From IMG/VR virus record IMGVR_UViG_3300033182_000595, positions 1-64,000 of that record: a DNA stretch of 64,000 nt; one strand, written 5' to 3'. The stretch is from a virus. Positions within the stretch are counted from its first letter, which is position 1. Each line of letters starts with the position of its first letter. Position numbers and translations under genes: made by a program. Below the pieces are notes generated by a model. It was given only the letters and a program-made list of their open reading frames with translations. It was not told where the DNA came from and made no database searches. Shown here in pieces: positions 17,101 to 55,364 of the stretch.

Positions 17101-19487
17101 GTATGCGTAACACACCTCAAAGCCTGGACGCTCGTATGGTTGAGAGTCGGTTACCGAAGGAGTTCTTCTTCTACAATATGTATGACGAGGTATCCTCTAA
17201 CATTAGGCTGGCTTTAATGACTGCAACCTCTGCCTTTGGTCGTGATGGAGAGTATGCTAATCGTGCGAGAAAAGAAGGTGGTGACAACTTAGATGGTGCC
17301 GCATCCACATTCAATGAGTTGATGTCCCGTGTCACCAAGAGTCCTCACAAAAAACCAAGAGCTACATATAGCAGACAGCAGAAAAAGGAAGCGTACGAAG
17401 AACTCCGTAAGGACGGATATCAGAATGTAGAGAAAGTATGGAATGATCTGTACACTAAAGCGATTGCTCACGGTGAACTAATGGTAGCCTTCGATCACCT
17501 CGGTAAGTACTACGGGCGGGACAACATAGCCGGACCTTATCAGGATGCGAATCTGTTGCTCGAGCTACTCGGTGCGCAGTCAATGCAAGTGCTGAATAAT
17601 CCGAAGTCATCGTTCTGGCAGGCACTCTCCTTGTTTGAGTTCCCGAATGCTTTCCGTGGATTAAACAAGATTGCAGGAAAGGCGACCGCATCAGCGTTAG
17701 GCAATTTCGTAAACCAAACCTTTGGTGGGATCGCTGAAGCTATGGGTGTAGAGTTAGGTAAGACTGGGCGGTACGCTCAGTATTTAAATAATACGCACTT
17801 CCGCATGGACGAGATGGATCTCTCGTTTAAGGAGTACAATGCGATGGTGGGGTCGGGTGGTGATTTAGCCGAGACCATACGAAGCCGACCCGCACTTGGA
17901 TTAAAGAAGTATATCCGCATGACCAAGAACCTTGCGACCCACCACCGCAGAAAGAAAAAGGATGGTACACGGGCTCCAATAGATCCACTTACACCATTCA
18001 CGGGCATATTCCCATACATCAATAATGTAGTGAACCACTCGATTGGTGTTGGTGCTATCCATACATATAGCGACCTAGTCCTACAAATAGCTGAAGTAAT
18101 TGAGAGCCAAGGATACACAGAGTATCGTGAGTTCACCGCCAAAGACTTAGGCATGGGTGGCAAGATGGGGGAGTGGGTACTAGGAGAAGAGGATGGGTAT
18201 AACCGAGCCAATGAAATGCTTGTGTCTGCCGGGGGACCAACTATATCCCGCTTGGCATTCGACTTTGTAGATCGCAAGAAGGGAGACAAGAACGCGCTAC
18301 CGATCGAGAAAAACATGGCACTCCTGATCAATCAGGTAGCTATGAATAATGTATCGGGTGAAGGGTTTAACTCTAAGCCGTCCTGGCTATATACATCTCC
18401 AGCCATGCGTTACTTTAGTACCTTCCTTGGCTGGCCTCTTGGTAAGATGTCCCGTGACTTGCAGTTTATCTTCAGAGACCCAAATGATAGGGTACGCACC
18501 TACAAAGCATTACTTAAATACATTGCCTTAATGTCTGCGGTGTATGCACCCGTGGGTCTATCCTTTGCTATGCTTATAGATTGGTATGATGAGGAGATGT
18601 TGGAGAAACCAAACAACTTACCTCCAATGAGTCCATGGGCGGCACTTCCAATCGTTGGCATACCTCTCGCCATGAGAGATGAGAACTTTACTTTATACTC
18701 TGTTACCTCCCGTTTAGCTAAAGCGGGTGTACCATTTGGTATGGGCATGGATGTGCTAAATGGAATGTTTGCCAAGGGTGATCCATACGGCTCTGCCCGT
18801 GAGCTTAGCTTGGATAGTAGAATCTTTGCATGGAGTATGTTTAAGAACATCTACGATGCCATGGGTACGTGGATACACTCGGGAGAGTTTGACTGGCAAA
18901 TGGTTGGTCGTCCGATCGCTTATGGTATTGGTGGAAATTCTGTAATACAAATGATGGATCTCACTACTGCTCTCATGGATATAGACTCCGAAGAGCGTAG
19001 GGTAGCCGACTACATTGGTATGCGGAACTACATCAAGAAGACTGCATTCATGATGGGACTGCCACTTCGTCCACCATCCAAGGGCGGGCAGATGCCCACA
19101 GGAGTATCAATGAATACCAGGCAGATGGCAAGAGCCGCATTTGCAAATGACACAGAAGACTTCCTTGCTCAGTACCAAGAAGCACTAGAGGAAGCAAAAG
19201 ATTATATTGATGAGCGTGGTATGGACATCACTCCTGAGAAATATGTGGCTGACGCATTTAAGGATAGGGATATCCGAAGCAATATAACTGCCCGCAAGAT
19301 CGGTGACGAGGACTGGGCAGAGCTTATGAGCCTCTTACCAGAAGATGCCAGGGATAAGATACAATCAGCGATCAATTCCCATGAGCATTACCTTAGACTT
19401 ATCGGAGGATCTTACAGGGCTCCGTCCATAAGGACATCCTTCGATAGGGAACGCGCAAGACAGAGAGCCGCACTAATGCTATTATAA
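8172..19487 (+). CDS. Giant polyvalent internal virion protein (metallopeptidase and kinase-like domains)
   Basis: This is a single 3771-residue reading frame. Visible parts in order: Gly-rich hydrophobic segments near residues 97-118 and 168-190; an SH3/KOW-like segment near 415-460 and another near 640-680; Lys/Pro-rich linkers; coiled coil about 950-1130; a zincin motif HEAMH at 1621-1625; a kinase-like fold of the type found in polyvalent proteins at about 1985-2165, with GSEARAY as glycine loop, DLNPRN as catalytic loop and an IDF metal site; long helical C-terminal regions; and one strong membrane helix at about 3449-3472. Giant ejected proteins of this kind are known from podoviruses, where they enter the cell with the DNA. 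The domain calls are by motif, and the roles are inferred. It is far larger than T7 gp16. Confidence 0.75.
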   Translation: MSQFLNDPQNEVVDQLRKRYLEEYGIDTSNFSNEELIFKHGQDLEGSGMDMDGIESEYGELFKDQYYDIKNRARPDQSYGDDFGDAISSATSGLQSTALGGLGLGLGQLGFEGAEDYLLGKAAEYQEEASQSRPTVDRFSDVRWDRPEEVARFLIGAMGEVIPSTVESGGAALLGGGIAGLGAKTLAKTAIRKSINERLKKTVGQSVIDLGKEIAKKKALTPFNVGAGAGLAASSFGLSSGEIYTELYPYTQLDPSNPDYVDPQEARNISTGFGFVAGGLDAFGAGKLLSKLTGASDKVASGYFKTLLKSLPEGIFVEGGTEVLQELINMTAEKYARGMEMEFNDQEISRLFDAGVLGAIGGTQFSAISAIKGIQKKEIDQDTSMEPQNDILLSLESLLERLSDQRAEDDSRYGVGDEVEIALSGNTGTITKISGNNVEVKLSNGDLAETTMDRLTQAVDPQEELSQPQTKYQELNFDETESKVEEPSAEKIVGGDVKIQDEPVIKPKKKLLGTEVLSIQVKDGDTRTKKDLTVTQAKDARELYDALVELSKKDMSKNIGYANKTGGFAGNVRSALISRLGQDKVKRLWTPENIQVLRDMGILNYSNEWQLGTKLDDALDQKNEEERAQKRKNFIKREGFAQDNEVVIRETGEQTKITEIMDNGMVKVDGSDNPFFPRDLKKVVAPKKPRKSKPKSNKSKPAQGPIEEVQQEIEEEVPDPIFFDDEGEIVTDVDLENANIGFSYTSGKEIKQNSLTFEGVTDIDGFIEGVKAWVSNTQKNKKRFDRRQLENLRGLEIDGVLYPVEITDDYISVAGLDIYTTERADLEARRGPVPFPINNMVTDSVRLEDSINSDSTPNGKLLNTQVFATTRTKSAVLLRKPASKNNEEFFRLVTLSKGKTSRKTILKGYDSVTGKHIYLKEGVSNNFSEYEIVGKIESTDVVPKDLDVFFGDLDEFMADERVVEFMNRQKVESKSEQKATAVAQATDLDAIEAEIDEITVDMNSLDPNDPDRDKKILELNNRAKKLRETYNKAERANTKAQGDIDPELVNRYQEAVNYLSELEKARNKRQKYEFDNGKKRVPTRKDIEQAEDAVQSLSAQATKYNETVKTRKGAFIEDAVTENVTGNISESANVMEEQGSASNAAQASELENNPKGMRGAGKSEVVDIETASAGKGIVEFMALAIKGEQDETFGVVPGLFDIIVGDRTTLKALAGLQKKYEEEKTNPEFSDEFLDSLNKFITLFYDRHAGQAFLKFKRGEKTNIDSFQEIIDKAKRIKTWAQNLAVIQGRFIDVLQLADKRDLTKAIAGSETDPKTVVQKPNFRSINQAKERLKNPEYFPYEIVHLALKDIGYHPDSPVWKAMLFPEQRDDAGNLSIQEILDHLNKDNIFDAEELLSVLQEIYGDDHYIQEDLRFLVNYGYTRNLKKLIKKGEEAPMGSIYTDPLAESRLNPNAQHIPNKVDPITGKVDMGHVLVLDEASAKASIDNARASSQSYMAPEQNPLEQTHPELVEEGKAAMNKFAPGGLGVPFPLRTALNQIKGVKSQIASIANVSRLLDSKILDGFEVVFMDWEQFRPYANPRMGVVNKAVILPKKKRIIISTAFNNNTRHSAMDTLMSDIVHEAMHMVSKPAIDLGYAYATGKQEVIESAIEEHGIPADFNSTGEQLAKIYKDITEKLLPYLRERGRLDNHYGLTSIDEFFSELKSNPKFQKFLRETKLPASMVKNKGLISTVLDYIFNILAKLGFKGASTSDSAMTYARDEMNKLVELSNSVSDLYDSIIHSNIRSIENLPSRLEMGFDKDKSIPNLTNDGYFETTTFISTERANPTNPGGPSKYPEVSERLQALRDQAIRIAREEARLDLLAEGDTRDPKKSSEANQTALIKLLTRPLSLIPHEAREAVIKFRESVDLVSEDKISSLTEGSATNSQAELLDALESAFENGSIDENTFITQVQAQWGNSLLGYDIKADFESALADLREKLEDGTEIGQDSEWTFIAKGSEARAYKSSDGLIYKTFFLAPQEQDGAVNLNLPIVGSKNVTDWDLVGQNTLDTDEHPLVDKLIFDNVAGFVQTEMVAITDQGRVIYKQPDVGDVEATPQEIQDAILRHGHTLLEELYPNTDLDAGITAALVEKDGEKYIVADLNPRNARKLPNGEVVFIDFIARKLNPADKIKVKKKPQPTLDMDVSDDDLLGNIYTPPNDLPRGASARPDDNARIMAQANAAGFNEMIDAMVKVHRKFGEKLGIKIDKFIEDYAKPGSKSVSKIKELLGKDLKPFDIDPNDIRIEDAGLNSVSRSYGVRRAISNLERVREDARKNRSSSDFLVKEIEQKKIESRRVWEDLIKGRMPSRDKLARRIKERLNATSFDRLQEFVESMPNSGMSQADLNAVYEISESDLMDMMDAVVEARGEIDGLNKTELEERLNSMSDRRLSGIQGDQVRQKVKRMAVVRAIKNSRDVLSLLRLSKGLIGGPEQNYKDAATMIALAEDMDALNAVKFSFPGIQQTPIKHFLEMRKEEMSEVANLEKIKASMEVYDYIDRSLGDRSARLRMALGELEPVNIHDGVTLVTLERDENEPTGWKRGSYTVQIKNGKLEDRDGFIKANKDTLMGLRDEKVMSQFGNEPWWEVMNEQANLALTEPILDEHFHAQRAAWFAGLQGLTERFSKLGYEGKKLAQMSTRTVALFRDYSSRSQAYSKMFNASYHKVMKKLKLGGNELYSGLYQDIFWWLDNHPEFAGREDEAFRSLWSHLRENANIPDKSKLDEEARRLIKDMIGKAIQARDWEAEVNKRLGNRIRDDEIKVESFVNGEMVDFYRLPLEMGYATMPRTLNDAYIRVTADIMKQWDDDSGAGLLAEAASANDAETMSKIYSVLFSKEVVDRFVKPYTNTDVRQSVFRGPKDEDGYSPELGNSFISEAFKASDGDIFEMSNYIYDQVAEDPTDRGKLEWQHAFLKQFFKRHAQIKKVSNRISREKNGMHSGESMRNTPQSLDARMVESRLPKEFFFYNMYDEVSSNIRLALMTATSAFGRDGEYANRARKEGGDNLDGAASTFNELMSRVTKSPHKKPRATYSRQQKKEAYEELRKDGYQNVEKVWNDLYTKAIAHGELMVAFDHLGKYYGRDNIAGPYQDANLLLELLGAQSMQVLNNPKSSFWQALSLFEFPNAFRGLNKIAGKATASALGNFVNQTFGGIAEAMGVELGKTGRYAQYLNNTHFRMDEMDLSFKEYNAMVGSGGDLAETIRSRPALGLKKYIRMTKNLATHHRRKKKDGTRAPIDPLTPFTGIFPYINNVVNHSIGVGAIHTYSDLVLQIAEVIESQGYTEYREFTAKDLGMGGKMGEWVLGEEDGYNRANEMLVSAGGPTISRLAFDFVDRKKGDKNALPIEKNMALLINQVAMNNVSGEGFNSKPSWLYTSPAMRYFSTFLGWPLGKMSRDLQFIFRDPNDRVRTYKALLKYIALMSAVYAPVGLSFAMLIDWYDEEMLEKPNNLPPMSPWAALPIVGIPLAMRDENFTLYSVTSRLAKAGVPFGMGMDVLNGMFAKGDPYGSARELSLDSRIFAWSMFKNIYDAMGTWIHSGEFDWQMVGRPIAYGIGGNSVIQMMDLTTALMDIDSEERRVADYIGMRNYIKKTAFMMGLPLRPPSKGGQMPTGVSMNTRQMARAAFANDTEDFLAQYQEALEEAKDYIDERGMDITPEKYVADAFKDRDIRSNITARKIGDEDWAELMSLLPEDARDKIQSAINSHEHYLRLIGGSYRAPSIRTSFDRERARQRAALMLL

Positions 19488-20989: not shown

Positions 20990-21215
20990 AGAGTATTCAA
21001 TCTACTCGGAGAGATTTAAGCGTGAAGTCGATAAAGCGCATCGTGACTTTTTTGAAAGGCGTGGTATTCCACTCCATAGTCTTGATGGCGATTTTATCTT
21101 CGGAACCAAGGAGTTTAGGAGGCATCGTGCAAATAGCCTTTCGTCGTTTCCGTTCGAGAATGACCTACCCATTTCGCAATCTTTTCAAGTGAAGAATTAT
21201 AGTCCTCCTTATTAA
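20973..21215 (+). CDS. Hypothetical 80-residue protein overlapping integrase 3' end
   Basis: The start at 20973 (MGKKTEEYS) is chosen because it gives the usual short overlap with the preceding gene; an upstream in-frame start at 20907 would overlap by 83 bases. The N-terminal 50 residues are charged and helical. The last 33 residues are encoded antisense to the integrase C-terminus, which contains its catalytic Tyr region, so the tail may be a chance extension. Family not recognised. Confidence 0.45.
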   Translation: MGKKTEEYSIYSERFKREVDKAHRDFFERRGIPLHSLDGDFIFGTKEFRRHRANSLSSFPFENDLPISQSFQVKNYSPPY

Positions 21216-22155
21216 CACGGGAGACAAACGAGTGCCTGAATGAGTGGAAGCTTTTCCCTTCGATCTCCATTCGGTTAAGAAATCTAGTAAAGTAAACACT
21301 GAACCTTGATCTTTTGTTTGGATCGCTGATTACCTCAGCCCACTCAGGAAAGCAATACCTTGAATCATTCTGTTCGATCTCGGTGATCGTCTTGCGAAGC
21401 AAGCCACCACCAATCAATGGATTGTCATAGGGTAGGGCGACCCTTGTGTCCGTCTTCTCTGTCCAGACATTCAAGTGATCCTCTCCCCATGAGTCCCACT
21501 CTAGCTTGCATACATCTACTGCACGCAGTCCTGTCCACCACCCAAGCGTTACGGCTTGCTTAAAGAAGTATGGAGCGTGTGCGACCATCTTCTTGTAATC
21601 TTCCTTGGTGAATGGAACTCTCTGCCTAGTCTCTTTTTGCTTGTGTGATAGTCGGCTCGCATCCACCCGCACGCCAGCAGATGGATCGGTAAGAATGTAG
21701 CATTTTGCTACAGCAAAGTTTAGCATACTACGAATAGCGGCAAGCCTCTGATTCCTAGAGTTTAAGTTTACATCACACTTCTCATTGATGTAGTTAAAAA
21801 TATGCTCTGATGTGATATCAGATAGCTTTCTGATGTTATTAAAGTTTGCGAACTTCTCCAGTACAGTGACCTGAGTGTAGAGAGTATTGGCAGATTTGCA
21901 TCTAACCATGGAATGCTCCTTCCACTCAGATATACACTCAGCTATGGTGAGATCGTCGTCGGCTAACATAAGAGTAAGGACATCACGATTTGCTTTCTTC
22001 TGCTTTATTAAAGACTCAGTAAGCTCGTACTTCTTAGCCATACTCTTGGCTTCCTTTTGGTTCTTTGTCTCTAGTGATACCGTGCGGGTCTTGCCCGACA
22101 TTGTTTTAAATCTTACAGAATAAGTACCTGTCCGATCGCTCTTAATTAACTTCAT
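21115..22155 (-). CDS. int: Tyrosine recombinase (integrase 1)
   Basis: A 346-residue phage integrase. There is an N-terminal arm-binding-like region (residues 1-60) and a SAM-like core-binding domain (about 70-165). The catalytic residues are Arg211 (TGLRAVD), His304-x-x-Arg307 (HSFRHSF), His332 (WVGHS) and the nucleophile Tyr341 (GYLHD). It cuts and rejoins DNA at att sites. The gene stands alone behind its own promoter with a 22-bp palindrome, downstream of the dpdA-like gene. No tRNA-like att core is seen next to it. It is one of two integrases in the window. Confidence 0.93.
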   Translation of the reverse strand: MKLIKSDRTGTYSVRFKTMSGKTRTVSLETKNQKEAKSMAKKYELTESLIKQKKANRDVLTLMLADDDLTIAECISEWKEHSMVRCKSANTLYTQVTVLEKFANFNNIRKLSDITSEHIFNYINEKCDVNLNSRNQRLAAIRSMLNFAVAKCYILTDPSAGVRVDASRLSHKQKETRQRVPFTKEDYKKMVAHAPYFFKQAVTLGWWTGLRAVDVCKLEWDSWGEDHLNVWTEKTDTRVALPYDNPLIGGGLLRKTITEIEQNDSRYCFPEWAEVISDPNKRSRFSVYFTRFLNRMEIEGKSFHSFRHSFVSRVNKEDYNSSLEKIAKWVGHSRTETTKGYLHDAS

Positions 22156-22163
22156 AGTGTATC

Positions 22164-22195
22164 GTTACATATCTTTATGTGTTACTATTTGTCAA
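22164..22195 (-). promoter_or_regulatory. Integrase 1 promoter with 22-bp palindrome
   Basis: Read on the minus strand: TTGACA (22195-22190), four bases, then GTAACAC...GTAAC (22185-22164), with TATGTA 18 bases after the -35. The -35 overlaps the stop codon region of the dpdA-like gene. An operator placed inside the promoter would let a repressor silence int. Confidence 0.6.
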
Positions 22196-23052
22196 ACTAA
22201 TTGTAATTGTACATCATTATGTACAACCCTGTCATGGAATCTAATTGCTGACTCTATTCTGTTTTTACTTTTCCTTGGCAGACCATCCATGCGATCCGAG
22301 AAGTCGTAAGCGAATGAGTCCGCTGAGTAGATCCTGTCCTTGATCCGTGAGTTCTTGAGTCCTGTCTGCTTGAATCCAAAGAGGTGTATCTTTGGTCTGT
22401 TCCCGCGGAAGCTCCACTCAAGTGTATCAAGTATCTCAGCTACAACCTCTGGGTTTTTATTACGCTTACAAGTTGAGCCAATGCCCACCCATCTAGTGTC
22501 GAGTACTGTGCCCTTAGTTGAGTGCCTGTTTAAATTGCCGAACTTCATGTCGTAATCTGTATCAAACCTTTTACTTAGTGCATTCTCATACATCTCAAGG
22601 TGTTGCTTGTAATCCTCAACCTCCCAACCCTGGAGTACTGGCATGACCGGAACACGCAGATCGTACTTGTCAGCCGCCTCAAGTATCTGCATGTATCTCT
22701 CAACTGTTTTGCGTTGGTGAATACGGACGGAAGCACGGATACCCTTGTCCTGTAGTTGCCTAATGACATCGGGCTCGCACATATAGTCCTGTGTTACTAT
22801 GCACTGCAAGTCACCACATAACTCAAAGTACTTGGCTACCAGTACATATTCCTCGGGAGACATAATAAAGTCCCCATAGGTTGTAATCTGCGAGAACGCA
22901 CCCGAGTCCATCATCCACCTACTAACAGACAAAGGATACTTCCTCTGCCTAAGCCTACCACCCTCATTCCTAACCAATGAGTTGGCAGATATCATAACAT
23001 TACGCTTCCACGCATTGTTGTGTCGGTCTGTACCTACAAAGTACTCACGCAT
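22192..23052 (-). CDS. dpdA: DpdA-like 7-deazaguanine DNA transglycosylase
   Basis: A 286-residue TGT-fold protein. The key segments are WMMDSGAF (47-53, with the Asp of the TGT/DpdA family), VTQDYMCEP (86-94), PVMPVLQG, VGIGSTCKRN, IHLFGFK and YSADSFAYD. DpdA enzymes swap guanine in DNA for a 7-deazaguanine such as preQ0, protecting phage DNA from restriction. No queC, queD, queE or folE homologue lies in the window, so the base would come from the host or from genes outside. It is the last gene of the leftward operon and starts behind a GGAGGT ribosome site. Confidence 0.82.
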   Translation of the reverse strand: MREYFVGTDRHNNAWKRNVMISANSLVRNEGGRLRQRKYPLSVSRWMMDSGAFSQITTYGDFIMSPEEYVLVAKYFELCGDLQCIVTQDYMCEPDVIRQLQDKGIRASVRIHQRKTVERYMQILEAADKYDLRVPVMPVLQGWEVEDYKQHLEMYENALSKRFDTDYDMKFGNLNRHSTKGTVLDTRWVGIGSTCKRNKNPEVVAEILDTLEWSFRGNRPKIHLFGFKQTGLKNSRIKDRIYSADSFAYDFSDRMDGLPRKSKNRIESAIRFHDRVVHNDVQLQLV

Positions 23053-23468: not shown

Positions 23469-23902
23469 GATGCTTGATTCCATCCGCAGTGCGGACATTC
23501 GATGTATTTGTTTTTCAATAGCTCACCAGGTGCTGGCTTGTAACCTGTTGATTTGATCTGAATACCCGTAGCGAGTACACCTTGCCCTGTGATTGAGTGA
23601 TTGCATTCAGGACAATCCATATCGTATTCCCCGATATAGCTTTCCTCCTTTTGCTCAATCCATGTACCTCTACCAGTGAACATTGTGTGCAGAGTATCCG
23701 GAGTAAGCTCGACCATTTCTTCGGTGATCTTCCACTCGCCTACGGAGTTGCCATTGATATCTTTAAGTTTACCCGCTACCCATCCATCAAGTGGTGAGAT
23801 CTTCGGGAGTAGTTGTTCTGTTAGTATGCGAGATAACTCGCCTGAGTTATGTTCGAATGCACTATTGTCCATGCGAACCTCTAGGTTGAATGTTCGTTTC
23901 AT
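23465..23902 (-). CDS. Hypothetical zinc-ribbon protein
   Basis: 145 residues. The C-terminal half has two CPxC knuckles (CPECNH and CPHCGW) about 40 residues apart, a typical zinc ribbon. The N-terminal half is mixed alpha/beta and not recognised. It overlaps both neighbours by a few bases. The ribbon could bind nucleic acid or bridge proteins. Confidence 0.62.
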   Translation of the reverse strand: MKRTFNLEVRMDNSAFEHNSGELSRILTEQLLPKISPLDGWVAGKLKDINGNSVGEWKITEEMVELTPDTLHTMFTGRGTWIEQKEESYIGEYDMDCPECNHSITGQGVLATGIQIKSTGYKPAPGELLKNKYIECPHCGWNQAS

Positions 23903-24348
23903 TTTATTTGTAATAATTCTCTATCGCTGAATGAGTAATGCTTGCCGTGACCAATGATTACATGATCTCGGACTGGTATCTTCAGTACATTGCCCGCTTG
24001 TACTAATTGTTTTGTTATTTGCAGATCCGCACTAGATGGCGTGGGATCTCCGCTTGGGTGGTTATGGCTCAGTATTACACCTGACGCACCTGACATAATA
24101 GCTGGTCTGAATACAATCGTGGGATTCAGTAAGCATGAGGACGCTAGTCCCGTAGACACTTTCTCCCGTGCGATTGGATAGAGCTTGGCGTTGAGCATAA
24201 TTACCCACACTTGCTCTTGCATAGGGGCGTCATCGAATGCCCCCTCCATGTATTCAGCTACTCTGTTTGGCTCATCTAGCGGCCTATGTTCCATAATGCC
24301 AACCCGTTTGTATGTCTGTGTAGACTCGTATATAACCATCATCTCCAA
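23899..24348 (-). CDS. JAB/RadC-family metallopeptidase-like protein
   Basis: A 149-residue protein with the JAMM motif: a Glu near 45, His95-Asn-His97-Pro, Ser105 and Asp108 (HNHPSGDPTPSSAD). This is the zinc site of RadC and JAB deubiquitinase-fold proteins. RadC-like proteins occur widely in phages and plasmids with unclear function. Here the gene lies in the same operon as ThiF (E1-like), PRTRC B (E2-like) and PRTRC C (ubiquitin-like), where a JAB partner is expected. Linking it to that cassette is inference. Confidence 0.82.
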   Translation of the reverse strand: MEMMVIYESTQTYKRVGIMEHRPLDEPNRVAEYMEGAFDDAPMQEQVWVIMLNAKLYPIAREKVSTGLASSCLLNPTIVFRPAIMSGASGVILSHNHPSGDPTPSSADLQITKQLVQAGNVLKIPVRDHVIIGHGKHYSFSDRELLQIK

Positions 24349-24611
24349 ATTACTGGTAGTATATTGTGTTTATTAGTTGTTTTGTTATCTATGAATAATG
24401 CACCTCCATCGTTACCTTCGTCATCACTTTGCGGGATGACTACGATCTCTTCAGGAGTTTTGCCCATTCGTGGTTTCTTTAGGATCAGAGCAACAGGATT
24501 AGCGTGCCAGTCCTCGTCATCCATGTATTGGACATCGGTTATGGTGAAACCCACAAGTAACTTGCGAGCCTCACCATTCCAATAGTCCCTTATTTCTTTC
24601 TTTGTCTTCAT
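24339..24611 (-). CDS. Hypothetical 90-residue protein
   Basis: The start at 24611 (MKTKKEIRDYW) overlaps the helicase stop as ATGA and is preferred over an upstream in-frame start at 24668. It is mixed alpha/beta and acidic, with an N-terminal amphipathic helix and a VALILKKPRMGKTPEEIVV segment. Family not recognised. It lies between helicase and JAB genes. Confidence 0.6.
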   Translation of the reverse strand: MKTKKEIRDYWNGEARKLLVGFTITDVQYMDDEDWHANPVALILKKPRMGKTPEEIVVIPQSDDEGNDGGALFIDNKTTNKHNILPVIWR

Positions 24612-27175
24612 AAAGTTACCTCCTCTTTGTTCGTGATAGTCAGGAAGTTCTTCTTGAGATCCTCCCACTTGCGTAACAAGTAGTCCTCGCCATCCTCTGC
24701 ACCTGTGGCACTTGGATCATAGCCAGTGACATGCTGAGCAAGTAACTCATCCTCGCTCATCGTCTTGACATCACGGGGTACTCGCTTGCCGTACAGGCAG
24801 ATCGTGGCGGCATCCTCCTTGTTGCCCAGCTTGTCGAACATCAACTCCTCGATGGAATTGCGATGCAACATGACATACACATTGACATCCTCCTTGGAGG
24901 TTAGTCGATAGATACGACCAAGTGCCTGGTTGAACACACCATACGACCACTCAAGGCAACCGATGATAAGATTCTTGCACTGCTCAAAGCTGAACGCTTG
25001 GGCACACTTGATACCCATGAGAAGCACAGGAACTTCTCCATCCTTGAACTTGGCGGCTTCCCGTGCCTTGTCCTCACGCTCACCATCAATCCTAGCGTAC
25101 TTGATACCCACCTCACTCAATCGCTCAGCGATCTCGTTGGTCATACCATGACGGGCAGACACATGAATGATTTGTTCACCCTTGGATACATGATGGTATA
25201 TCTTCTCCATACACATAAGTACCTTGGGGGTGAAGTTGGACTTGCTGTACATATTGTACTTTGAGCCGGAAGGATCACCGCAAATACCACGCAAGTATTG
25301 CATCTGCACACCATACCTGAACCTAGCATCATCCACAGGGATGTTGGCTGGATCCATGAAGTGCATGTAATTCATCCGTTGTTGCTGAGTCATTGGTACA
25401 CGAATCTCGTACACATTGGACTTGGGCATATTCGGATTGCACTGAATCTTGCTGATGAATGATACCGTTGGACGCAGTAGCTTGAGCAACTTGGCGGGCT
25501 GACTGATCGTGGGTGAAGACTTGAGATAGCTAGGACCACGACCCGTCTCCTTGTGTATCTGTTGCAAGGTATGGTCACGCTCCACGGTCATGAACTCAGT
25601 CTTGAAGTCACCGATCTCTCCAAGCTTGTAAGGCCAACGAGGGTTCAGTCTGTTGCCATGATACCAGTCAGGTACACACAACCAACCCATGAGAGAGAAG
25701 ATGTTGAATACCATGTTAGGTATAGGAGTGGCAGACAGGGCGAACTTGTACTTGGGTTGCAAGCGTATGAAGTTACGAGTGATCTGCGAGTCAAGATTAC
25801 AGATGAGATGTGCCTCATCGAGGATGACCATATCCCAGAACTTGTGACCGATCTCGGTAGCCAAACATGGTGTGTCGATACACTTGATCGCATGCTTGTC
25901 ACCAGTTGGCTCACCCAGGTTGTGAGTATGAACCTCACCATCAACTATGCTGTAAGTAGCATTGGTGGTGTCATACAGATCATAGGTGCGGGTAGTACCA
26001 AGACCGAAGTGGTAGTTGATAACATCCCGATTGCCCCACTCGTCATGTAAGGGAGGTACGCGAAACTTACGCTTCTTGAGATCCTTGCGATACAACTCCT
26101 CGGTGTCCTTCTTGGCTGAGTACCATGTGCTAGGCAACTGCTCTGTCCCACTACGGAACATCACATGGTCATAGGTAAGGAATACACCATGAGGTAACTC
26201 ACCACCATGTAGCTTGATTAAGGCATCATAGTCCTTGCGTGAGAATAGCTTGTACACAGGAACATCTGGTGCAAACTTAGCGAACTCCGATGTCCATTGT
26301 GATGGCTTAGTGACCTCACCACCTTTGCCTTGCGAGTCCTTGACCGTACCCTTTGGGGCAACAATCAGTACACGACCCGACATCTTGAGGATGACAAGAC
26401 AGATAGCAATGAGTGTCTTACCGCATCCCGTCTCGGCTGAGATGAGAGCAGACTCGGCACATGCTGACTGAGCGACATACTTCATCTGACCAGGGAAGAA
26501 CTTGAACTCACCCGCTACCTCCATGTGTTGGAGGATCTCCATAGCCATGTTGTACTCGTCCTTGCGTTCCTCCGCTAGGGTAGGGATCACAGGCTTCTCG
26601 AAGTACTCCCATATCTTGGACTCATCAATGTCCTGGTCGATAGTAGGATGGTCACGGAAGTTTACCTTCCAACCTCTGTCGTCCGTGGTGGTAAGAGCAA
26701 AGTCCTTACCCTCAAGCGACATGTCATGTATCTTGGATGATACTTCCTTGGACTCCTCATTGAAGTGCATCTTCATCTTGGTGAAGGGCTCAATGTAACC
26801 AATGGCACGGGAAGTGAACTTGTACACCTTACCCTTGGTAAGCTGTAGGTTCTCCTCGTCCACATCTTGGACACATGTGAGTTCACGCTTCTCATCAACA
26901 TAAGCGATCTTCTCATAGTCGGTTGGCTCACGAAGGGGGCGAGCTATCCGTACTGAGGATTTAAGAGCTGCATCAATCAGCTCAGTTGCTTCTGGACTAA
27001 CGAGACATGTCTTGTGGCTCATTAGCTTTTGGAGGCGTTGCCGTTCGCTTAGTGCTACCACTAGCGACATCGGTGTCCTCCCACCAACCAACTGCAAGTC
27101 TACCTTGATGTCGGATGGTGCATAGTCTGGATATGCGACGAGCTTGCCGTCACGCTCCTCTATGTCATACTGCAT
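24608..27175 (-). CDS. SNF2-type superfamily 2 helicase/ATPase
   Basis: An 855-residue SF2 helicase. Motif I is SAETGCGKT (about 246-254), Ia follows (VLIVAPKGTV), motif II is DEAH (453-456), and motif III is SATP (481-484). The C-terminal RecA domain has VSARHGMTNEIAERL, ARIDGE and a motif VI-like QALGRIYRL. A roughly 200-residue N-terminal region is not recognised. Such enzymes translocate on double-stranded DNA and remodel bound proteins. Its position between a JAB peptidase and a ThiF/E2 cassette is notable. It may act in phage replication or in countering host proteins. Confidence 0.85.
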   Translation of the reverse strand: MQYDIEERDGKLVAYPDYAPSDIKVDLQLVGGRTPMSLVVALSERQRLQKLMSHKTCLVSPEATELIDAALKSSVRIARPLREPTDYEKIAYVDEKRELTCVQDVDEENLQLTKGKVYKFTSRAIGYIEPFTKMKMHFNEESKEVSSKIHDMSLEGKDFALTTTDDRGWKVNFRDHPTIDQDIDESKIWEYFEKPVIPTLAEERKDEYNMAMEILQHMEVAGEFKFFPGQMKYVAQSACAESALISAETGCGKTLIAICLVILKMSGRVLIVAPKGTVKDSQGKGGEVTKPSQWTSEFAKFAPDVPVYKLFSRKDYDALIKLHGGELPHGVFLTYDHVMFRSGTEQLPSTWYSAKKDTEELYRKDLKKRKFRVPPLHDEWGNRDVINYHFGLGTTRTYDLYDTTNATYSIVDGEVHTHNLGEPTGDKHAIKCIDTPCLATEIGHKFWDMVILDEAHLICNLDSQITRNFIRLQPKYKFALSATPIPNMVFNIFSLMGWLCVPDWYHGNRLNPRWPYKLGEIGDFKTEFMTVERDHTLQQIHKETGRGPSYLKSSPTISQPAKLLKLLRPTVSFISKIQCNPNMPKSNVYEIRVPMTQQQRMNYMHFMDPANIPVDDARFRYGVQMQYLRGICGDPSGSKYNMYSKSNFTPKVLMCMEKIYHHVSKGEQIIHVSARHGMTNEIAERLSEVGIKYARIDGEREDKAREAAKFKDGEVPVLLMGIKCAQAFSFEQCKNLIIGCLEWSYGVFNQALGRIYRLTSKEDVNVYVMLHRNSIEELMFDKLGNKEDAATICLYGKRVPRDVKTMSEDELLAQHVTGYDPSATGAEDGEDYLLRKWEDLKKNFLTITNKEEVTL

Positions 27176-27332
27176 TTATCTGTATTTCAATAATTTGTGC
27201 ATCTTTTAGACCTTGAGACTTAAGGTGCCGAAGTGCCCCCTCTGCCTCTGTCTTGGTGAATGTAATTGTTTCCTGTGTGTCGGAGTTGCACAAGCAGTGC
27301 CCCATGCAGGAAACCAGGTATCTAGTTATCAT
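27165..27332 (-). CDS. Hypothetical 55-residue protein
   Basis: The frame runs from ATG at 27332 to TGA at 27165. It overlaps the ThiF stop as ATGA and the helicase start by 11 bases, so it fills the only gap between them. It begins MITRYLVSCMGHCLC (three Cys in the first 15 residues) and ends with an A-E-G-A-L-R-H-L-K helix. Family not recognised. Confidence 0.6.
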   Translation of the reverse strand: MITRYLVSCMGHCLCNSDTQETITFTKTEAEGALRHLKSQGLKDAQIIEIQINAV

Positions 27333-28015
27333 TTTATTTTTATTGGGTTAGTGACCCCCTTAGTGAGGTCAAAGAATACGCCCTGCACTTCTAGTTTACC
27401 CCACCTCAGCAGGGACCATACGAAGTGCAAGGCATGGTTAGCTACAACACTATTAACAAAAAGGTCTTGTCTGAAAAATTGGTCTACGCAACCGGGCGAC
27501 TCCTCCTCTGTTGGTTCGTCTCCATAGATTAAATCTGAATGTTCTTCATATATGTTTGGTAGATCTCCCTTGTATTGTCCGATCAGTACTTGACCAGATG
27601 TCTGAGCATTACCGCAGTCGATCATGTATGTGCCTTCATTCTGCCACGACTTAGCTATTGCCTCACGGGACTTGACGGTATCGACACATGATATGCATAG
27701 ATCCACATTGTCTCGTGATGGTGCTTTGCGTGGTACTGCCATCCAGTTGGTGCGGTAGTACAGATTGATACGCTGACACAATGTCTTAGCCTTGTTGTGA
27801 CCGACATCTGATTCATAGAATGCCTGTCTGCCTACATTGCTATATGATACGATATCGGGATCGAATGCAGTAACATGGATGGGTGTCCTGTTTAGTACAT
27901 GGAGTGCATGATTGATACGGGCAAGTCCGTTGAGTACATGACTACCCGTGCCTCCGCATCCGTACACTGATATCTTGTTAATCGTCTTGGTCGTGGTGTG
28001 CCCTGATCCACTCAT
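27329..28015 (-). CDS. PRTRC-type ThiF (E1-like) protein
   Basis: A 228-residue E1/ThiF fold. GCGGTGSH (19-26) is the nucleotide-binding loop, FDPDIVSYSNVGRQ holds the Asp and Arg of the adenylation site, and ISCVDT and the later segments complete the Rossmann core. E1-like ThiF proteins adenylate the C-terminal glycine of ubiquitin-like proteins. The gene begins with a strong AGGAGGT site and directly follows the E2-like PRTRC B gene. With PRTRC C and E just upstream, this matches the ParB-related, ThiF-related cassette known from plasmids and integrative elements. Confidence 0.85.
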   Translation of the reverse strand: MSGSGHTTTKTINKISVYGCGGTGSHVLNGLARINHALHVLNRTPIHVTAFDPDIVSYSNVGRQAFYESDVGHNKAKTLCQRINLYYRTNWMAVPRKAPSRDNVDLCISCVDTVKSREAIAKSWQNEGTYMIDCGNAQTSGQVLIGQYKGDLPNIYEEHSDLIYGDEPTEEESPGCVDQFFRQDLFVNSVVANHALHFVWSLLRWGKLEVQGVFFDLTKGVTNPIKIK

Positions 28016-28625
28016 GTAGTGTTACCTCCTGTTGTTTGATCTTGTTGCGTGGGGTGGGCATGTAGTTGAACTTGCTGTTGTAGAAGCAAGCCTCCCACTC
28101 CCAATGAGCCATGACATCCAATGAGAATGCAAACTCTGGGTTGGGACGATTGACTGAGCAATGCCCCATGACCCCGCCCCGTGGATGTACATCAATCCCA
28201 CGATATGGAATCTCGTATATCTTGTGGTGCAAGTTTGGTCGCTCGTCTTTACTTGTTGAGTAGATAGCAATGTTGAGCGTGTCCTGGTTATTCTTACGCT
28301 TAACCATGAAGACGATGCCCGGATGTCGATACCATCTCTGTTGCTTGCTCTTCTGTGGATCTCGCTCACTGATTGTTATCTTCCGCTTACTTGGCGGGCT
28401 GTACCAGATCATGATTCGATCTTGATCGAACCAAAGCATTCGATTGTCATAGAATGCATAGACCTCAGCCGTACACTCAGCGGGTAGTATCTTGTTGAAT
28501 GAATCCCTGTCTACTGCCCGTGGGTTACCCCATTGGTCATCCTGTTTGTCGTACAATACTGCAACGGATTTACCGTCATCATCGTACACCATTAAGCTAT
28601 GCTTAGCTTCAATTAAGTTGGTCAT
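27978..28625 (-). CDS. PRTRC system protein B (prokaryotic E2-like fold)
   Basis: 215 residues matching the layout of PRTRC protein B (Prok-E2_D type). It has an N-terminal barrel-like part ending FYDNRMLWF, a HPGIVFMVKR strand, L-N-I-A-I-Y, a D-E-R-P segment, an EIPYRGID strand and a GVMGHCSVN turn where Cys156 is in the position of the conserved E2-type cysteine, and a C-terminal FYNSKFNY. It is predicted to receive a ubiquitin-like protein from ThiF. It overlaps ThiF by 38 bases and the upstream gene by 17. Confidence 0.72.
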   Translation of the reverse strand: MTNLIEAKHSLMVYDDDGKSVAVLYDKQDDQWGNPRAVDRDSFNKILPAECTAEVYAFYDNRMLWFDQDRIMIWYSPPSKRKITISERDPQKSKQQRWYRHPGIVFMVKRKNNQDTLNIAIYSTSKDERPNLHHKIYEIPYRGIDVHPRGGVMGHCSVNRPNPEFAFSLDVMAHWEWEACFYNSKFNYMPTPRNKIKQQEVTLHEWIRAHHDQDD

Positions 28626-29562
28626 GACTTAGATATTTTAATAGTTCGTGGAATGGTTTGAAGCTCCCGATCATTGCTTCTGCTGTATCCAACTCGTGGC
28701 ATTCGGGCATACATGTGCAGTCGCTAAACTCCTGCACCTCTGCGATCATATGATCTAGTATGAACCACGATGGATCCGTTGATTGTCCCATGTCGCCTGG
28801 TCTCCTCCTGACCTCTTGCATCCTCCTGTCTGGGCCGATGGCGAAGTTAGTATTCTCACCAGTTATGCGTGCCATGCGTCTTGTAATCATGGGGGAGAAC
28901 CCATACCAAGAGCATACCGCAAATGGCCAAGTGGCGATGTCATCATCCCATCGGTCAGGTCTTTCCATCTCGCATACATTCTCCTTACAAGCACGGAGTA
29001 ACCATTGTATGCGTGAAGGCATATTTTTAGGCACATCCATATTCTCAGGAGTTATCCAATCAGGGTAGAGCTTCTCGTTCTTCTCAGGGTATTTATCGCC
29101 ATAATCCTCACTGTTACCCCACCAGTAGTGCAGGTAGTGAGTGAAGTCCCTCTCGATATCTGCGGGAGTAAGTATCCAGAACGGAGCATTGTCCAACAGA
29201 TACATGATAAGAGGACCGACCCCGTATTGATTGTGCAACATCTCGCACCTCGGACCGATGGCGAACTTACGCTCGCATTGGTATGTGTTGAGGATAGGGT
29301 AGTTCCCTCTCTGACCAGTTACATATTCGATCTGTAAACCGAATGCATTATTGCCCAATACTTGATGTAGTACATCAGTAAGGTATGGATCAACCGCTGG
29401 GTCTCTCTGTACCTTTCTTTGTATTGTGCCATCTATGCGAATGAACTGAGGCAGAGCGTCAGGTGTTTCTAAAAGAGGGGAGGCACGGAGCGAGGGGACA
29501 AGCTTCCGCTCCCTTTCAAACGCGAGACATTCTTCATCACTTGGAATGATAACCGAAACCAT
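28609..29562 (-). CDS. Probable PRTRC system protein F
   Basis: 317 residues. Its place between the ubiquitin-like C gene and the E2-like B gene corresponds to that of protein F (and A) in classical PRTRC cassettes. Features seen: a proline-containing N-terminus, WILTPADIERDFTHYLHYWWG in the middle, a Trp/Cys-containing CSWYGFSP region and a C-terminal Cys-rich DCTCMPEC. No catalytic motif is recognised. The assignment rests mainly on context and weak residue resemblance; it may be a distinct phage protein. Confidence 0.45.
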   Translation of the reverse strand: MVSVIIPSDEECLAFERERKLVPSLRASPLLETPDALPQFIRIDGTIQRKVQRDPAVDPYLTDVLHQVLGNNAFGLQIEYVTGQRGNYPILNTYQCERKFAIGPRCEMLHNQYGVGPLIMYLLDNAPFWILTPADIERDFTHYLHYWWGNSEDYGDKYPEKNEKLYPDWITPENMDVPKNMPSRIQWLLRACKENVCEMERPDRWDDDIATWPFAVCSWYGFSPMITRRMARITGENTNFAIGPDRRMQEVRRRPGDMGQSTDPSWFILDHMIAEVQEFSDCTCMPECHELDTAEAMIGSFKPFHELLKYLSHDQLN

Positions 29563-29568
29563 TGCTCG

Positions 29569-29823
29569 CTACCCTTTAGTTCCGTAGTTCCCTTTGAGTT
29601 CGTAGGTTGCGGATGGTCCTTTGCCTTCGAGCTTCCACTCTTCTTTTTCGTTTTGATAATATGGTCCTCCTATCTCTCCCTTGGTAAGGGATGGGTATTG
29701 TCTACTATACAGATCCATTACTTCTTCTGGTGACATGTGTCTGCCGGGATCGGGCAGGATGCGTCCACCAAACTTGAACACTCGTTCAACTTCCTTTAAT
29801 CCCTTTTGCTGTGCTTCTGACAT
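29569..29823 (-). CDS. PRTRC system protein C (ubiquitin-like)
   Basis: 84 residues from the ATG at 29823, which has AGGAG ten bases upstream; a longer in-frame start at 29874 is less likely. The core VERVFKFGGRILPDPG, then MSPEEVMDLYSRQYPSL, and the final GNYGTKG closely follow the PRTRC C / Prok_Ub family, a beta-grasp ubiquitin-like protein. The exposed C-terminal glycine is what an E1/ThiF would activate. This is the clearest marker that the cassette is PRTRC. Confidence 0.85.
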   Translation of the reverse strand: MSEAQQKGLKEVERVFKFGGRILPDPGRHMSPEEVMDLYSRQYPSLTKGEIGGPYYQNEKEEWKLEGKGPSATYELKGNYGTKG

Positions 29824-29950
29824 ACTTTCTTTTCTCCTGTTTTGGTCCTTGTACTCTAACTTGTAAGCCATCATAGAAGTGGTCTAAGTGACCACCCCGC
29901 TTGACTTGTAGCATTTCGTCTTTGGTTAATTGAATCAGTATTCTCTTCAT
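29786..29950 (-). CDS. Hypothetical 54-residue basic protein
   Basis: Starts at 29950 with an ATGA overlap to the PRTRC E-like stop and runs 38 bases into the PRTRC C gene in another frame. It has a basic C-terminal half (Q-E-K-R-K-Y-V-R). No family recognised. The overlap at the 5' end supports translation. Confidence 0.5.
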   Translation of the reverse strand: MKRILIQLTKDEMLQVKRGGHLDHFYDGLQVRVQGPKQEKRKYVRSTAKGIKGS

Positions 29951-30579
29951 AAAACCTCTAGGTCATCTAAACCGAATGGATCTTCCTCCTTTGTTTCTAC
30001 TGCTGTAGCGATAGCCTCAGCCTCCTCCTCTGCGGTAGGCTTCTGAGTCACACGCTCAACTGCTTTCTCTGCGGCGGTCTTAAGCTCAGCCTTGTTCTTG
30101 ACTGGTGTCTTCTCCACCTTTGGTTCTTCCTTCTTCTCGCCCAAGCGATCCTCATTCTCATCGAATAGACTGGCTTGACCCTCACGCTCCTTGGCTTGCT
30201 TTGCTCGAGCTTCATCCATCTCTTGCTTCTTAGTCTTACGAGGTGCAGGCTTAGCCTTGCCATTGGTTGAACGCTTGGTAGCTGGCTTCTTCTTTTCCTC
30301 CACACGCTTCTTGATCTCGTTCTCGATATCCTCGATTGCAGTTGTGCCTTCGATGAGGACATTGGAGTAGTGATGTATGTCAGCAATCAGTGCCTCGTCT
30401 GAGTACTCAGATAGTGGGTAGCTCTTGAACAAGGGACGCTCCAGTACCTGTTGGTCTTTCTCATCCAGCTTGTCATTAAGTACCTTGGGGATCACATATA
30501 TGTGTAGGTTGCTGTCCTTAATCTCCGTGCGGAAATCAAGCCTGTGTGTCTTGAGTAGTGGTATAAGTGAGTTAATCAT
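29947..30579 (-). CDS. PRTRC system protein E-like
   Basis: 210 residues. Residues 1-75 (LLKTHRLDFRTEIKDSNLHIYVIPK, then LERPLFKSYPLSEY) resemble the N-terminal domain of PRTRC protein E, which has a strand-rich L-x-V-x-V-x-P-K motif followed by a PL...GT/SxEEL helix. The rest is a long Lys/Glu/Ala-rich low-complexity region ending DPFGLDDLEVL, a short acidic/hydrophobic tail of the kind that binds partner proteins. Role unknown in the family. Confidence 0.65.
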   Translation of the reverse strand: MINSLIPLLKTHRLDFRTEIKDSNLHIYVIPKVLNDKLDEKDQQVLERPLFKSYPLSEYSDEALIADIHHYSNVLIEGTTAIEDIENEIKKRVEEKKKPATKRSTNGKAKPAPRKTKKQEMDEARAKQAKEREGQASLFDENEDRLGEKKEEPKVEKTPVKNKAELKTAAEKAVERVTQKPTAEEEAEAIATAVETKEEDPFGLDDLEVL

Positions 30580-30856: not shown

Positions 30857-31863
30857 GAAAATCTCTTCAATATCTCTGCCTTAATCATCTCAGGTACCTT
30901 ACCCAGTGCATTCTTCATGAAGTCGGTGAGCTTCTTGATCGCATCACCATGCTTACTGAGCTTAGCCTCGATCTCTGTCAGTCTCTCCTCAAGTGACTCA
31001 TCGGTAGCGGGACCGACTACACCACGAGCGAGATCCTCGATTGCCTCACGCAAACGAATGACAGGATGTGGCTCTTCCGGGTCAGATTGCCTATCCTTGG
31101 ATTGATTCTGCTTCAACTCATTGATGGTATCCTTGTACTCAGAGAGCTTGTCCCTGAACTCCTCGAAGTTCTTCTGAGCTAGCTTGATTGCATTCATCAA
31201 TGGAACAACAGGAGGAGTACCAACCTTCTCATTGTAGTGAACAAGTGCATCCAGTTGCCAATGCAGGGGATTGTCACCAATGCCAACTATGCTACGCTTG
31301 ATCGCTTCGATCTCTTCCTCCTCGCCAGTCTTAGTGAATGTCTGAGGACTTGCATCCAACGCAGGGGCAGTCTCTTTCTCCGTGTCAATGACCACACCTT
31401 CAACTGGTTGCTCAGCTTCTGGCTCGTCGTCCGTGATAGTCATATCCAAGTCGCCCACATCTTGATGCTCATCAATACCAGAATCAGAGCTTGGGGTAGG
31501 GGAGGATGACTTGGGCACACTGCTGACTTGATCGAACTCACCACTCTCTAGCCTGTCGATCCATCCTTGCATGGTCTTACACTTGATGTCCTGAAAGAAC
31601 TCCTGTCTCTCGGATGGCTCACGGGGTACATCAGCGGGCTTGTCCCCGTCCATTGGCCAGTGAGGATTTGGTGTACCATCATGTAGTCGTGGCTTGTTGA
31701 ACTTCTCACCCCCGAGGTCAGCCACATAGTATGTGAAGGTGAGACATGAGGGATCGAGAGCCTTGATACATTGGGTATTGAATGCGGTGATTGCCGCATC
31801 TCCCCCTCGTTCCTGTGTTCTCTTCTCCTGAATTAGTTTTTGTAGTTTATTAGACAATGACAT
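30853..31863 (-). CDS. Hypothetical protein with C-terminal coiled coil
   Basis: 336 residues from ATG 31863 (MSLSNKLQKL), which overlaps the AAA+ stop by 14 bases; upstream in-frame codons to 32004 would lie inside the AAA+ gene. It has a globular first 110 residues with FTYYVADLGG, an acidic linker (about 140-185), then coiled coil with E-x-x-L-x-x-x-E repeats and D-A-I-K-K-L. Family not recognised. It is placed between the clamp-loader-like ATPase and PRTRC genes. Confidence 0.6.
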   Translation of the reverse strand: MSLSNKLQKLIQEKRTQERGGDAAITAFNTQCIKALDPSCLTFTYYVADLGGEKFNKPRLHDGTPNPHWPMDGDKPADVPREPSERQEFFQDIKCKTMQGWIDRLESGEFDQVSSVPKSSSPTPSSDSGIDEHQDVGDLDMTITDDEPEAEQPVEGVVIDTEKETAPALDASPQTFTKTGEEEEIEAIKRSIVGIGDNPLHWQLDALVHYNEKVGTPPVVPLMNAIKLAQKNFEEFRDKLSEYKDTINELKQNQSKDRQSDPEEPHPVIRLREAIEDLARGVVGPATDESLEERLTEIEAKLSKHGDAIKKLTDFMKNALGKVPEMIKAEILKRFS

Positions 31864-32548
31864 TTTGCTGTCTCCTTTGTTTGATTTTGTGAATAGTGAT
31901 TGCTTTTTGTACTTCCTTGAGTGTGTGCCGGATATCTCCGTTGCCATTCTTGGCACAAACAAGAGCCGCCTTGTGAGGGATCTTGCATAGTCGAACAAGC
32001 TCATTGGCTACTTCCTCCGTGGATAGAGTTTTGATCTCAAACCACATGAATCTGCTTGAGAACTTAGGTGTTAGGTGTTCGTCTTTCTCTGACTTGGACA
32101 TGGCATCCCACTCCTCCCGACGGCATGGCTTCTTGTTAGTGGTAACAATAACCAGGTAATCGGATGGTAGCTCGTCCTGTAGCCAATCATGTAGGCAGTC
32201 CTGTACATCACGATGGATGTTATCCACTTCATTGATGACAATCGCACGGCGAGTACCATGCATGGGTAACATGTGACTACTGTAGATCATCTCATCCACA
32301 ACAGACTGAGTGACCTTAGTACCCTTATGTACGAATACATTAGACTCATGGTCAGCGTACTTGTTAGCCGCGAATGTAGCTATAGTAGTCTTGCCTCTGC
32401 CCTCAGCACCATGAATTAGAAAACATCGCTCCCCCATTGGGTTACATGCTTCTTCGAGAATGCAGTCGTAGTGCTGTGCGGTTGTGTCACCGATGATTTC
32501 TTCTGGTGTGGACGGGCGCCATCTTGCCCAATTAGTATTGTTTTGCAT
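31850..32548 (-). CDS. AAA+ ATPase, clamp-loader-like
   Basis: 232 residues. WARWRPSTPEEIIG at the N-terminus resembles the RFC/DnaX-family box. Walker A is GAEGRGKTT (47-55), Walker B VINEVDN (104-110), and a PKFSSRF segment near 160-167 holds the sensor/arginine finger typical of small clamp-loader subunits. Such ATPases load sliding clamps or act as replication accessory proteins. No sliding clamp or DNA polymerase is seen in the window. The N-terminal 44 residues overlap the upstream gene. Confidence 0.78.
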   Translation of the reverse strand: MQNNTNWARWRPSTPEEIIGDTTAQHYDCILEEACNPMGERCFLIHGAEGRGKTTIATFAANKYADHESNVFVHKGTKVTQSVVDEMIYSSHMLPMHGTRRAIVINEVDNIHRDVQDCLHDWLQDELPSDYLVIVTTNKKPCRREEWDAMSKSEKDEHLTPKFSSRFMWFEIKTLSTEEVANELVRLCKIPHKAALVCAKNGNGDIRHTLKEVQKAITIHKIKQRRQQNVIV

Positions 32549-49469: not shown

Positions 49470-49593
49470 TCTTAGCCTCCATTTGTCTAGTTGCTAGATA
49501 TCTTACCTGGGCACGGTTGCGCTTACCCCGTAACCCACCGAATGCACCTTTTGTCTGATGCCCGCCTTTTGATTGCTTACTCTTACTGCTCAT
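49450..49593 (-). CDS. Small basic protein (47 residues)
   Basis: ATG 49593 overlaps the DnaB stop; ends 20 bases inside the winged-helix gene. G-G-H-Q-T-K-G-A-F-G-G-L-R-G-K-R-N-R-A-Q is basic and Gly-rich. Family not recognised. Confidence 0.5.
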   Translation of the reverse strand: MSSKSKQSKGGHQTKGAFGGLRGKRNRAQVRYLATRQMEAKNDPRKQ

Positions 49594-54978: not shown

Positions 54979-55353
54979 ATGAATACCCCCTCAACAAACC
55001 TGACAATTCTTCACGATACCCAAGAATGGAGTACAGATATTGAGGGTGAGATTGGCGAAATAAGAGTGGAGGTGGAAGGCATCGCTCAAAGTATTAAGAC
55101 ACTGGTTTTATGCTTGGGCGTGATCGTTACGGTCTGCCTAGTCTGTAATATCGGAATGGCTACATGGGTTGCGACTCATGACGATGAAATCATGGAAGCC
55201 GTGGACGGTACCATCAAAAGGAACTCAGTAGTGATGGATAGAATGGCTAGATTAAATAATATCTATGCCAAGAAACTACAGTCAATGGGACTTATATATC
55301 GTGATGGAAATTGGCAACAAATTGGCAACAACCCCGTGAATCCCAGTAAATAA
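54979..55353 (+). CDS. Membrane protein upstream of attP
   Basis: 124 residues. Acidic N-terminal helix (E-G-E-I-G-E-I-R-V-E-V-E-G-I-A-Q-S-I), one membrane helix at about 42-62 (L-V-L-C-L-G-V-I-V-T-V-C-L-V-C-N-I-G-M), then a polar C-terminal domain. The reading frame ends 11 bases before the tRNA-like sequence. Could be a lysogenic conversion or superinfection-exclusion membrane protein; unproven. Confidence 0.55.
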   Translation: MNTPSTNLTILHDTQEWSTDIEGEIGEIRVEVEGIAQSIKTLVLCLGVIVTVCLVCNIGMATWVATHDDEIMEAVDGTIKRNSVVMDRMARLNNIYAKKLQSMGLIYRDGNWQQIGNNPVNPSK

Positions 55354-55364
55354 GAGGATCATGT

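Follow-up and report, generated by a model that had tools for sequence, protein, structure and literature searches.

In bacteria, ubiquitin-like conjugation is known above all as a weapon that hosts turn against phages. E1, E2 and JAB proteins carry it out in type II CBASS and in the BilABCD system. Cap2 joins cGAS via its C-terminal glycine and Cap3, a JAB protein, undoes the linkage (PMC10097602), and BilC frees the glycine of BilA (PMC11354881). The type 6d operon of Iyer et al. 2006 comprises a ubiquitin-like protein together with JAB, E1, E2 and alpha-helical proteins, and that paper predicts that JAB both processes and removes the ubiquitin-like protein in such operons (PMC1779556). Here we describe a cassette of this kind, PRTRC, carried by a virus. 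It lies within a stretch of 64,000 nucleotides (the window) out of the 80,762 bases of IMG/VR record IMGVR_UViG_3300033182_000595, the source of which is a tailed phage. We give a probability of roughly 0.58 to the reading that this is a phage-borne cassette for the activation and transfer of a ubiquitin-like protein, of the PRTRC (Iyer type 6d) kind, that would need no maturation protease.

The cassette comprises five genes in a leftward block (27329-30579, minus strand) in the order E-C-F-B-ThiF, with neighbours that adjoin or overlap. A first-pass annotation had described five adjacent leftward genes, as we find them, and had set the block at 27165-30579; the upper limit is right, but 27165 falls inside the neighbouring SNF2 gene. 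Its naming of C as Prok_Ub, ThiF as E1 and B as Prok-E2 is correct, each being over the family cut-off (PF14454, TIGR03736 and PF14460). Like the type 6d operons, the locus has a ubiquitin-like protein with a conserved terminal glycine, an E1, and an E2-like protein with a cysteine. In contrast, Table 1 of the Iyer paper has bacteria only for type 6d, and its text describes a JAB domain fused or adjacent in such operons, where the window has no JAB that we could find and a C without a tail (PMC1779556). Plasmid and genomic PRTRC cassettes (TIGR03734-TIGR03742) share the E, C, B and ThiF families, and in several plasmids the order is also E-C-F-B-ThiF, once with A before ThiF; other orders occur. 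Unlike these, the window has an altered E2 motif, an unrecognizable F and neither ParB nor A/JAB found. Because the last two are missing we regard it as a variant of PRTRC, not complete by the full definition. The cultivated Burkholderia phage BgVeeders33 (OK665841) carries E-C-F-B-A-ThiF, of which five of the six are annotated as hypothetical, and its E, C, F, B and A are over their NCBIfam cut-offs. It shares with the window a phage-borne E-C-F-B and ThiF; it differs in possessing A, and in a C with 62 residues past GTKG. CBASS and Bil are host defences of other architecture that the window matches only distantly, and by analogy they are precedents for the chemistry proposed below.

The ThiF protein (27329..28015, minus strand; 228 residues) matches TIGR03736 PRTRC_ThiF with 200.7 bits (cut-off 144.75) and PF00899 with 56.4 bits (cut-off 28.1). 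The glycines of its GxGGxG loop, seen earlier as GCGGTG, are invariant in all 84 aligned rows, as are D52, N60, R63, K75, D112, R117 and D133, and D54 is conserved in 83 of them. Cys176, once again invariant in 84 of 84 rows, is the candidate thioester cysteine. The ubiquitin-like protein C (29569..29874, minus strand) matches PF14454 Prok_Ub (56.1 bits, cut-off 25) and TIGR03738 (52.1 bits, cut-off 45.95). An in-frame ATG at 29823 has AGGAG about 10 bases upstream, and translation probably starts there (84 residues) and not at 29874 (101 residues). The protein ends GNYGTKG-stop, confirming the GTKG ending reported before, so that the Prok_Ub domain closes in a free C-terminal glycine, and this ending is conserved.

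Many relatives of C are made longer than this, and the additional residues follow a simple rule. Each locus with a detected C was scored for residues past the GxKG end and for a gene for PRTRC A, the JAB protein, sought within 9 kb of the cassette or, for plasmids, anywhere along the fetched stretch. Among 152 loci, 98 have A and a tail, 10 have A and no tail, 44 have neither, and none has a tail without A; the window C is one of the 44. Loci without a detected C were left out (38 of the 162 in a first round and 4 of the 12 from plasmids, leaving 8 of the latter); a second round of 73 contributed 20 loci, once those on contigs already covered (33), those lacking ThiF (2) and those with no detected C (18) had been removed. 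For 11 loci the tail was assigned by visual inspection, and some of the 44 ends of A-less C proteins are GxKG variants (such as KTKG, KTNG or GTHG) judged by alignment or by eye. Near-copies are present, such as L002/L003, L057/L058 and L209/L210/L220/L222/L223; dereplication at 80% ThiF identity leaves 92 loci, divided in the same order as 48, 9, 35 and 0. Seven of the 98 tails are just 1-5 residues long. The A-less C proteins end in glycine in 43 of 44 cases, that of locus L035 ending in alanine. The C proteins of L035 and of the Pelobacter plasmid L164 end GTKA and not GTKG; the A gene of L164 spans the start of the record, and it was counted as having A. The JAMM motif HxH...SxxD is present in all 107 A proteins examined, that of L164 not among them. 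By eye, a C-terminal stretch ..H.CPLLD.E..FI.AL.. recurs in many tails of the BgVeeders33-like group (L005, L012, L016 and others of L010-L051), so that the tail may be a second domain and not a mere cap.

We searched for A well beyond the cassettes. TIGR03735 finds no match in the whole records of 22 A-less loci (including L006, which is outside the 152), and the 80.8-kb record of the window has none; all six control records with A were matched, three of them over the cut-off. With filters off, the A profile reaches at best 3.1 bits (E 9) in the window record, and Prok-JAB finds in that record just a RadC at 17.1 bits, under its cut-off of 25. The confinement of tails to loci with A is what a maturation peptidase would predict. 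Since the window C is encoded already ending at GTKG, such a peptidase may be unnecessary there, and since no A is found in the record, the tag may be one without a dedicated remover.

The tail rule is joined by a second kind of precursor. Two in-frame C units occur in the viral contigs L209, L210, L220, L222 and L223. In three of the genes (L209:3354-3776, L220:3514-3936 and L223:3405-3827) the two units match at every one of 66 residues and differ in 32 of 198 bases; as the residues are the same, all 32 differences are silent. These three contigs are related, and we therefore count their tandem as a single case. A further gene (L243:3592-4698) strings together five units that each end in GTKG, with a single alanine after the last. 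An A with the JAMM motif is present alongside all of the tandem genes. The L223 locus includes a terminase gene next to the cassette; L243, with no match to the terminase families phrog_2 and PF03237, strongly matches an uncharacterized phage family and gives a weak virion match. The head-to-tail layout is that of eukaryotic polyubiquitin genes, and under it GTKG is probably where the chain is cut and the mature protein ends. The window C would carry that same end without any cutting. Taken together, the link between tail and JAB and the tandem precursors say, as far as sequences can, that the free glycine end of C matters, as conjugation requires.

In the window, B departs from its family in the active-site motif. 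The protein (27978..28625, minus strand; 215 residues) matches PF14460 Prok-E2_D with 56.6 bits (cut-off 25); its 49.5 bits against TIGR03737 PRTRC_B are under the cut-off of 131.45, although the E value is 3.4e-13. Thus when the five proteins are compared with profiles, ThiF and C are over the PRTRC cut-offs and B is over the Prok-E2 one alone. The cysteine of the family Cys-x-Gly motif is present in 77 of 82 aligned B rows, and the remaining five are exactly the clade of the window. A downstream histidine is found in 48 of the 82 rows, with tyrosine or glutamine in the five clade rows. With L006 added, all six phages of the clade have Gly-x-Cys, in a pattern D145-x-H147...G154-x-C156 of which the four named residues are invariant, and C156 is the sole invariant cysteine of B among them. 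None of the 77 other rows has a cysteine four residues past its own canonical one. The register of the E2 cysteine can be aligned as +2, +4 or an indel, and our claim is limited to the replacement of Cys-x-Gly by Gly-x-Cys, which, exact register aside, we read as a putatively rebuilt E2 site. Cys156 of this E2-like protein had been pointed out in the first-pass annotation; the residue is there and invariant in the clade, but it stands in Gly-x-Cys and not in the family motif.

The two remaining proteins are less well anchored. The E-like protein (29947..30579, minus strand; 210 residues) has a lysine-rich middle region. It has no curated family match of its own, and is assigned by an E value of 8e-8 to a profile iterated from a known PRTRC E protein and by its relative in L003, which matches TIGR03741 at 49.3 bits (cut-off 37.95). 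Between C and B lies a protein of 317 residues (28609..29562, minus strand) that has no family match; its hhalign probability to PRTRC F is 5.6, which is not usable, and its AlphaFold2 (AF2) model is poor (pLDDT 61.6), with no fold match. The gene is in the same place in five phages, the window included, with 22-34% identity. The earlier description of E as E-like agrees with these matches; the probable F is so by position only, homology not being borne out by profile comparison.

The chemistry at each step, the proteins targeted and what the cassette does in infection are all inferred here from what is observed: the genes, the conserved E1 residues, the conserved ending of C, the E2 motif of the clade, and the occurrence of tails only with A. 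ThiF would bind ATP and adenylate the free carboxylate of the terminal glycine of C, which would then be held as a thioester on Cys176. From there it would be handed to Cys156 of B, and B, probably with the help of E or F, would join C to lysines on proteins of the phage or the host that are engaged early in infection. The setting of the cassette among replication genes suggests that these targets would be found at DNA.

A number of observations weigh against this reading. V152 occupies the position of the canonical cysteine in the window B and Tyr188 that of the downstream histidine, and with both missing, we are less confident of transfer by this B than of transfer by its relatives. AF2 models B with an overall pLDDT of 81.5, the active-site loop being the worst part at <50. 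The model matches E2 structures weakly, with Z scores of 2.0-3.9 (3.9 for the 7bbd Ube2N/Ube2V2 chain, 3.0 for UBE2J2 and 2.5 for Cap2), and these lie below or beside unrelated structures, the top match being a single-stranded-DNA-binding protein at Z 4.0; Foldseek returns nothing under E 0.001. In weak profile searches of the PDB, B gave two chance-level rows and no solved relative, C gave no row, and ThiF reached no chain. The tail rule, too, has few independent changes behind it. On the best ThiF tree A changes about six times, of which two are forced by well supported branches; the paired changes never run in the opposite direction, but a sign test cannot reach significance with them. The 10 loci with A and no tail imply that A does something else there or is dispensable for C, and in draft genomes and virus fragments A may sit beyond the sequenced part, as with L164.

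The altered motif leaves room for B of the clade to be a pseudo-E2, a scaffold, with ThiF passing C to a single target or keeping it in a complex, so that modification would be narrow, of the enzymes themselves or of a partner. The loss of both the canonical cysteine and the downstream histidine fits this, as does the rapid divergence of B (25-41% identity to the window within the clade) and of F (22-34%) where ThiF keeps 57-66%. A decayed site would not, however, be expected to keep D145, H147, G154 and C156 in six of six phages, and we consider this explanation unlikely. The fold of ThiF would also suit a sulfur carrier pathway, with C made into a thiocarboxylate as with ThiS and MoaD for modification of phage nucleotides or RNA and no tagging of proteins, and a DpdA-type deazapurine gene lies nearby. 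Yet a dedicated E2-family partner, and the tandem C precursors and JAB genes of relatives, fit protein tagging, and no rhodanese or sulfur-transfer family was found among the window proteins scanned, which cover part of the record. To us such a role seems improbable.

Just as improbable, in our view, is a module for plasmid partition or maintenance that came along with the phage and that, if it serves at all, does so while the prophage is kept as an episome. PRTRC ParB is encoded directly upstream of E in several plasmid cassettes and the phage encodes an integrase, but a search for this ParB drew no match in the 10 phage and virus records tested (that of the window, eight other viral records and BgVeeders33) while matching both plasmid controls, and the cassette lies among replication genes whose block is conserved in the clade. 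The loss of ParB is in any case not special to phages, since a Parabacteroides plasmid cassette is also without an annotated adjoining ParB. Finally, C and its enzymes might compete with or modify ubiquitin-like defences of the host. Such defences do exist, as the reports on CBASS Cap2/Cap3 and Bil describe (PMC10097602, PMC11354881); ThiF distantly resembles the defence E1-E2 models of PADLOC (2e-6 at best), and the neighbouring SNF2 protein distantly resembles the defence helicases DpdE and ZorD. However, the PADLOC models give no match to B, C, E or F, and the similarity of ThiF is merely that of a common E1 fold. A counter-defence of this sort we regard as very unlikely. Conjugation by the phage, as proposed in the first-pass annotation, draws support from the E1 residues and the free glycine end of C, is qualified by the altered E2 motif, and has no A found for a removal step; the observation is confirmed and its first interpretation partly supported.

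How general is PRTRC in phages? We searched viral contigs with an alignment of three ThiF proteins, and 121 ThiF relatives were found among the matched stretches, not each of which is necessarily in a PRTRC cassette; the best 80 of the 121 were kept. The nearest are six contigs with ThiF identities of 58-67% (L002/L003, L006, L007, L008 and L009), which represent five distinct phages, L002 and L003 being of one type with the same length and match values. The order E-C-F-B-ThiF is kept in L002/L003, L007, L008 and L009, with extra genes between E and C in some; the cassette of L006 is cut, and its order not fully covered. In all 15 gene-pair comparisons (three pairs by five genes) nonsynonymous change (pN) is below synonymous change (pS), with synonymous sites near saturation. 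Of 34 records tested, 17 have a terminase match (14 to phrog_2, and 3 more, of 13, to PF03237), among them three of the five window-clade records; the negative records may be fragments, carry other terminases or not be phages. phrog_9 matches 3 of 11 records and is given no weight. Among 50,697 phage records there is a ThiF match in 10 (E <= 1e-5) and a C match in two (E <= 0.01), and among 72,556 plasmid records 376 match the ThiF of BgVeeders33. PRTRC had been described in the first-pass annotation as known mainly from plasmids and integrative elements; it is common on plasmids, but from sequence it is not rare in phages either, and appears in many of their lineages. No title on PRTRC in phages is among the literature matches listed, in a coverage that most subscription journals lie outside, and in two papers that name BgVeeders33 none of the terms ThiF, PRTRC and ubiquitin occurs in the parts covered. 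The kind of system is itself known; what appears new is its occurrence in phages, the A-less form, the tandem C genes and the change in the E2 motif.

The surroundings of the cassette are partly conserved. Upstream lies an RFC/clamp-loader-like ATPase (31850-32548), also present in L002/L003, L008 and L009, and downstream of ThiF lies the SNF2-family ATPase (24608..27175, minus strand; PF00176, 63.9 bits), giving a replication gene block that is kept across the clade. An SNF2 gene is near the cassette in all six relative loci, from the five distinct phages. It had been offered as a remodelling step; the conservation is real, but nothing links it to tagging, and the relationship is one of association only. 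Its best PADLOC match is DpdE (76 bits), and as a DpdA-type gene for deazapurine in DNA (22192-23052; PF23859, 108 bits) is nearby, SNF2 may belong with DpdA. The DpdA-type gene is kept in the loci of four of the five distinct relatives, and was not seen in that of L007. The JAB-family peptidase that had been proposed as a removal step is a short RadC (23899-24348; PF04002, 128 bits) with an intact HxHPSG motif. It was not found in the records of all five relatives, some of which are fragments, and we reject it as a common part of the system in the role of a deconjugase; three further phages (L018, L053 and L056) also have RadC-like proteins in their loci. Elsewhere the window encodes an integrase (21115-22155), an open frame of 3,771 residues (8172-19487), a DnaB-like helicase (49590-50984), tRNA-Arg (acg) (55339-55414), the terminase large subunit (57825-59366) and an SU10-type portal (59941-62205; a weak match, below the Pfam cut-off). 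Promoter-like sites number 22 against 32.5 in shuffles, rarer than in shuffled sequence, and carry no weight.

The occurrence of relatives across many phages suggests that phages may use a protein-tagging system of their own. More tentatively, it is possible that they run a complete ubiquitin-like pathway, some with polyubiquitin-like precursors cut by JAB, and that the window lineage has a one-way version of it, in which a mature C, the loss of the remover and a rebuilt Asp-x-His...Gly-x-Cys E2 site would give irreversible early tagging of replication or host proteins. The rule connecting tails with JAB assigns the maturation step concretely, in a form open to testing, for a family in which weak PDB searches found no solved structure, and the A-less cassette of the window is a small, three-protein candidate for reconstitution in vitro. 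Several phage lineages have a dedicated ubiquitin-like set of their own, and some have polyubiquitin-like genes.

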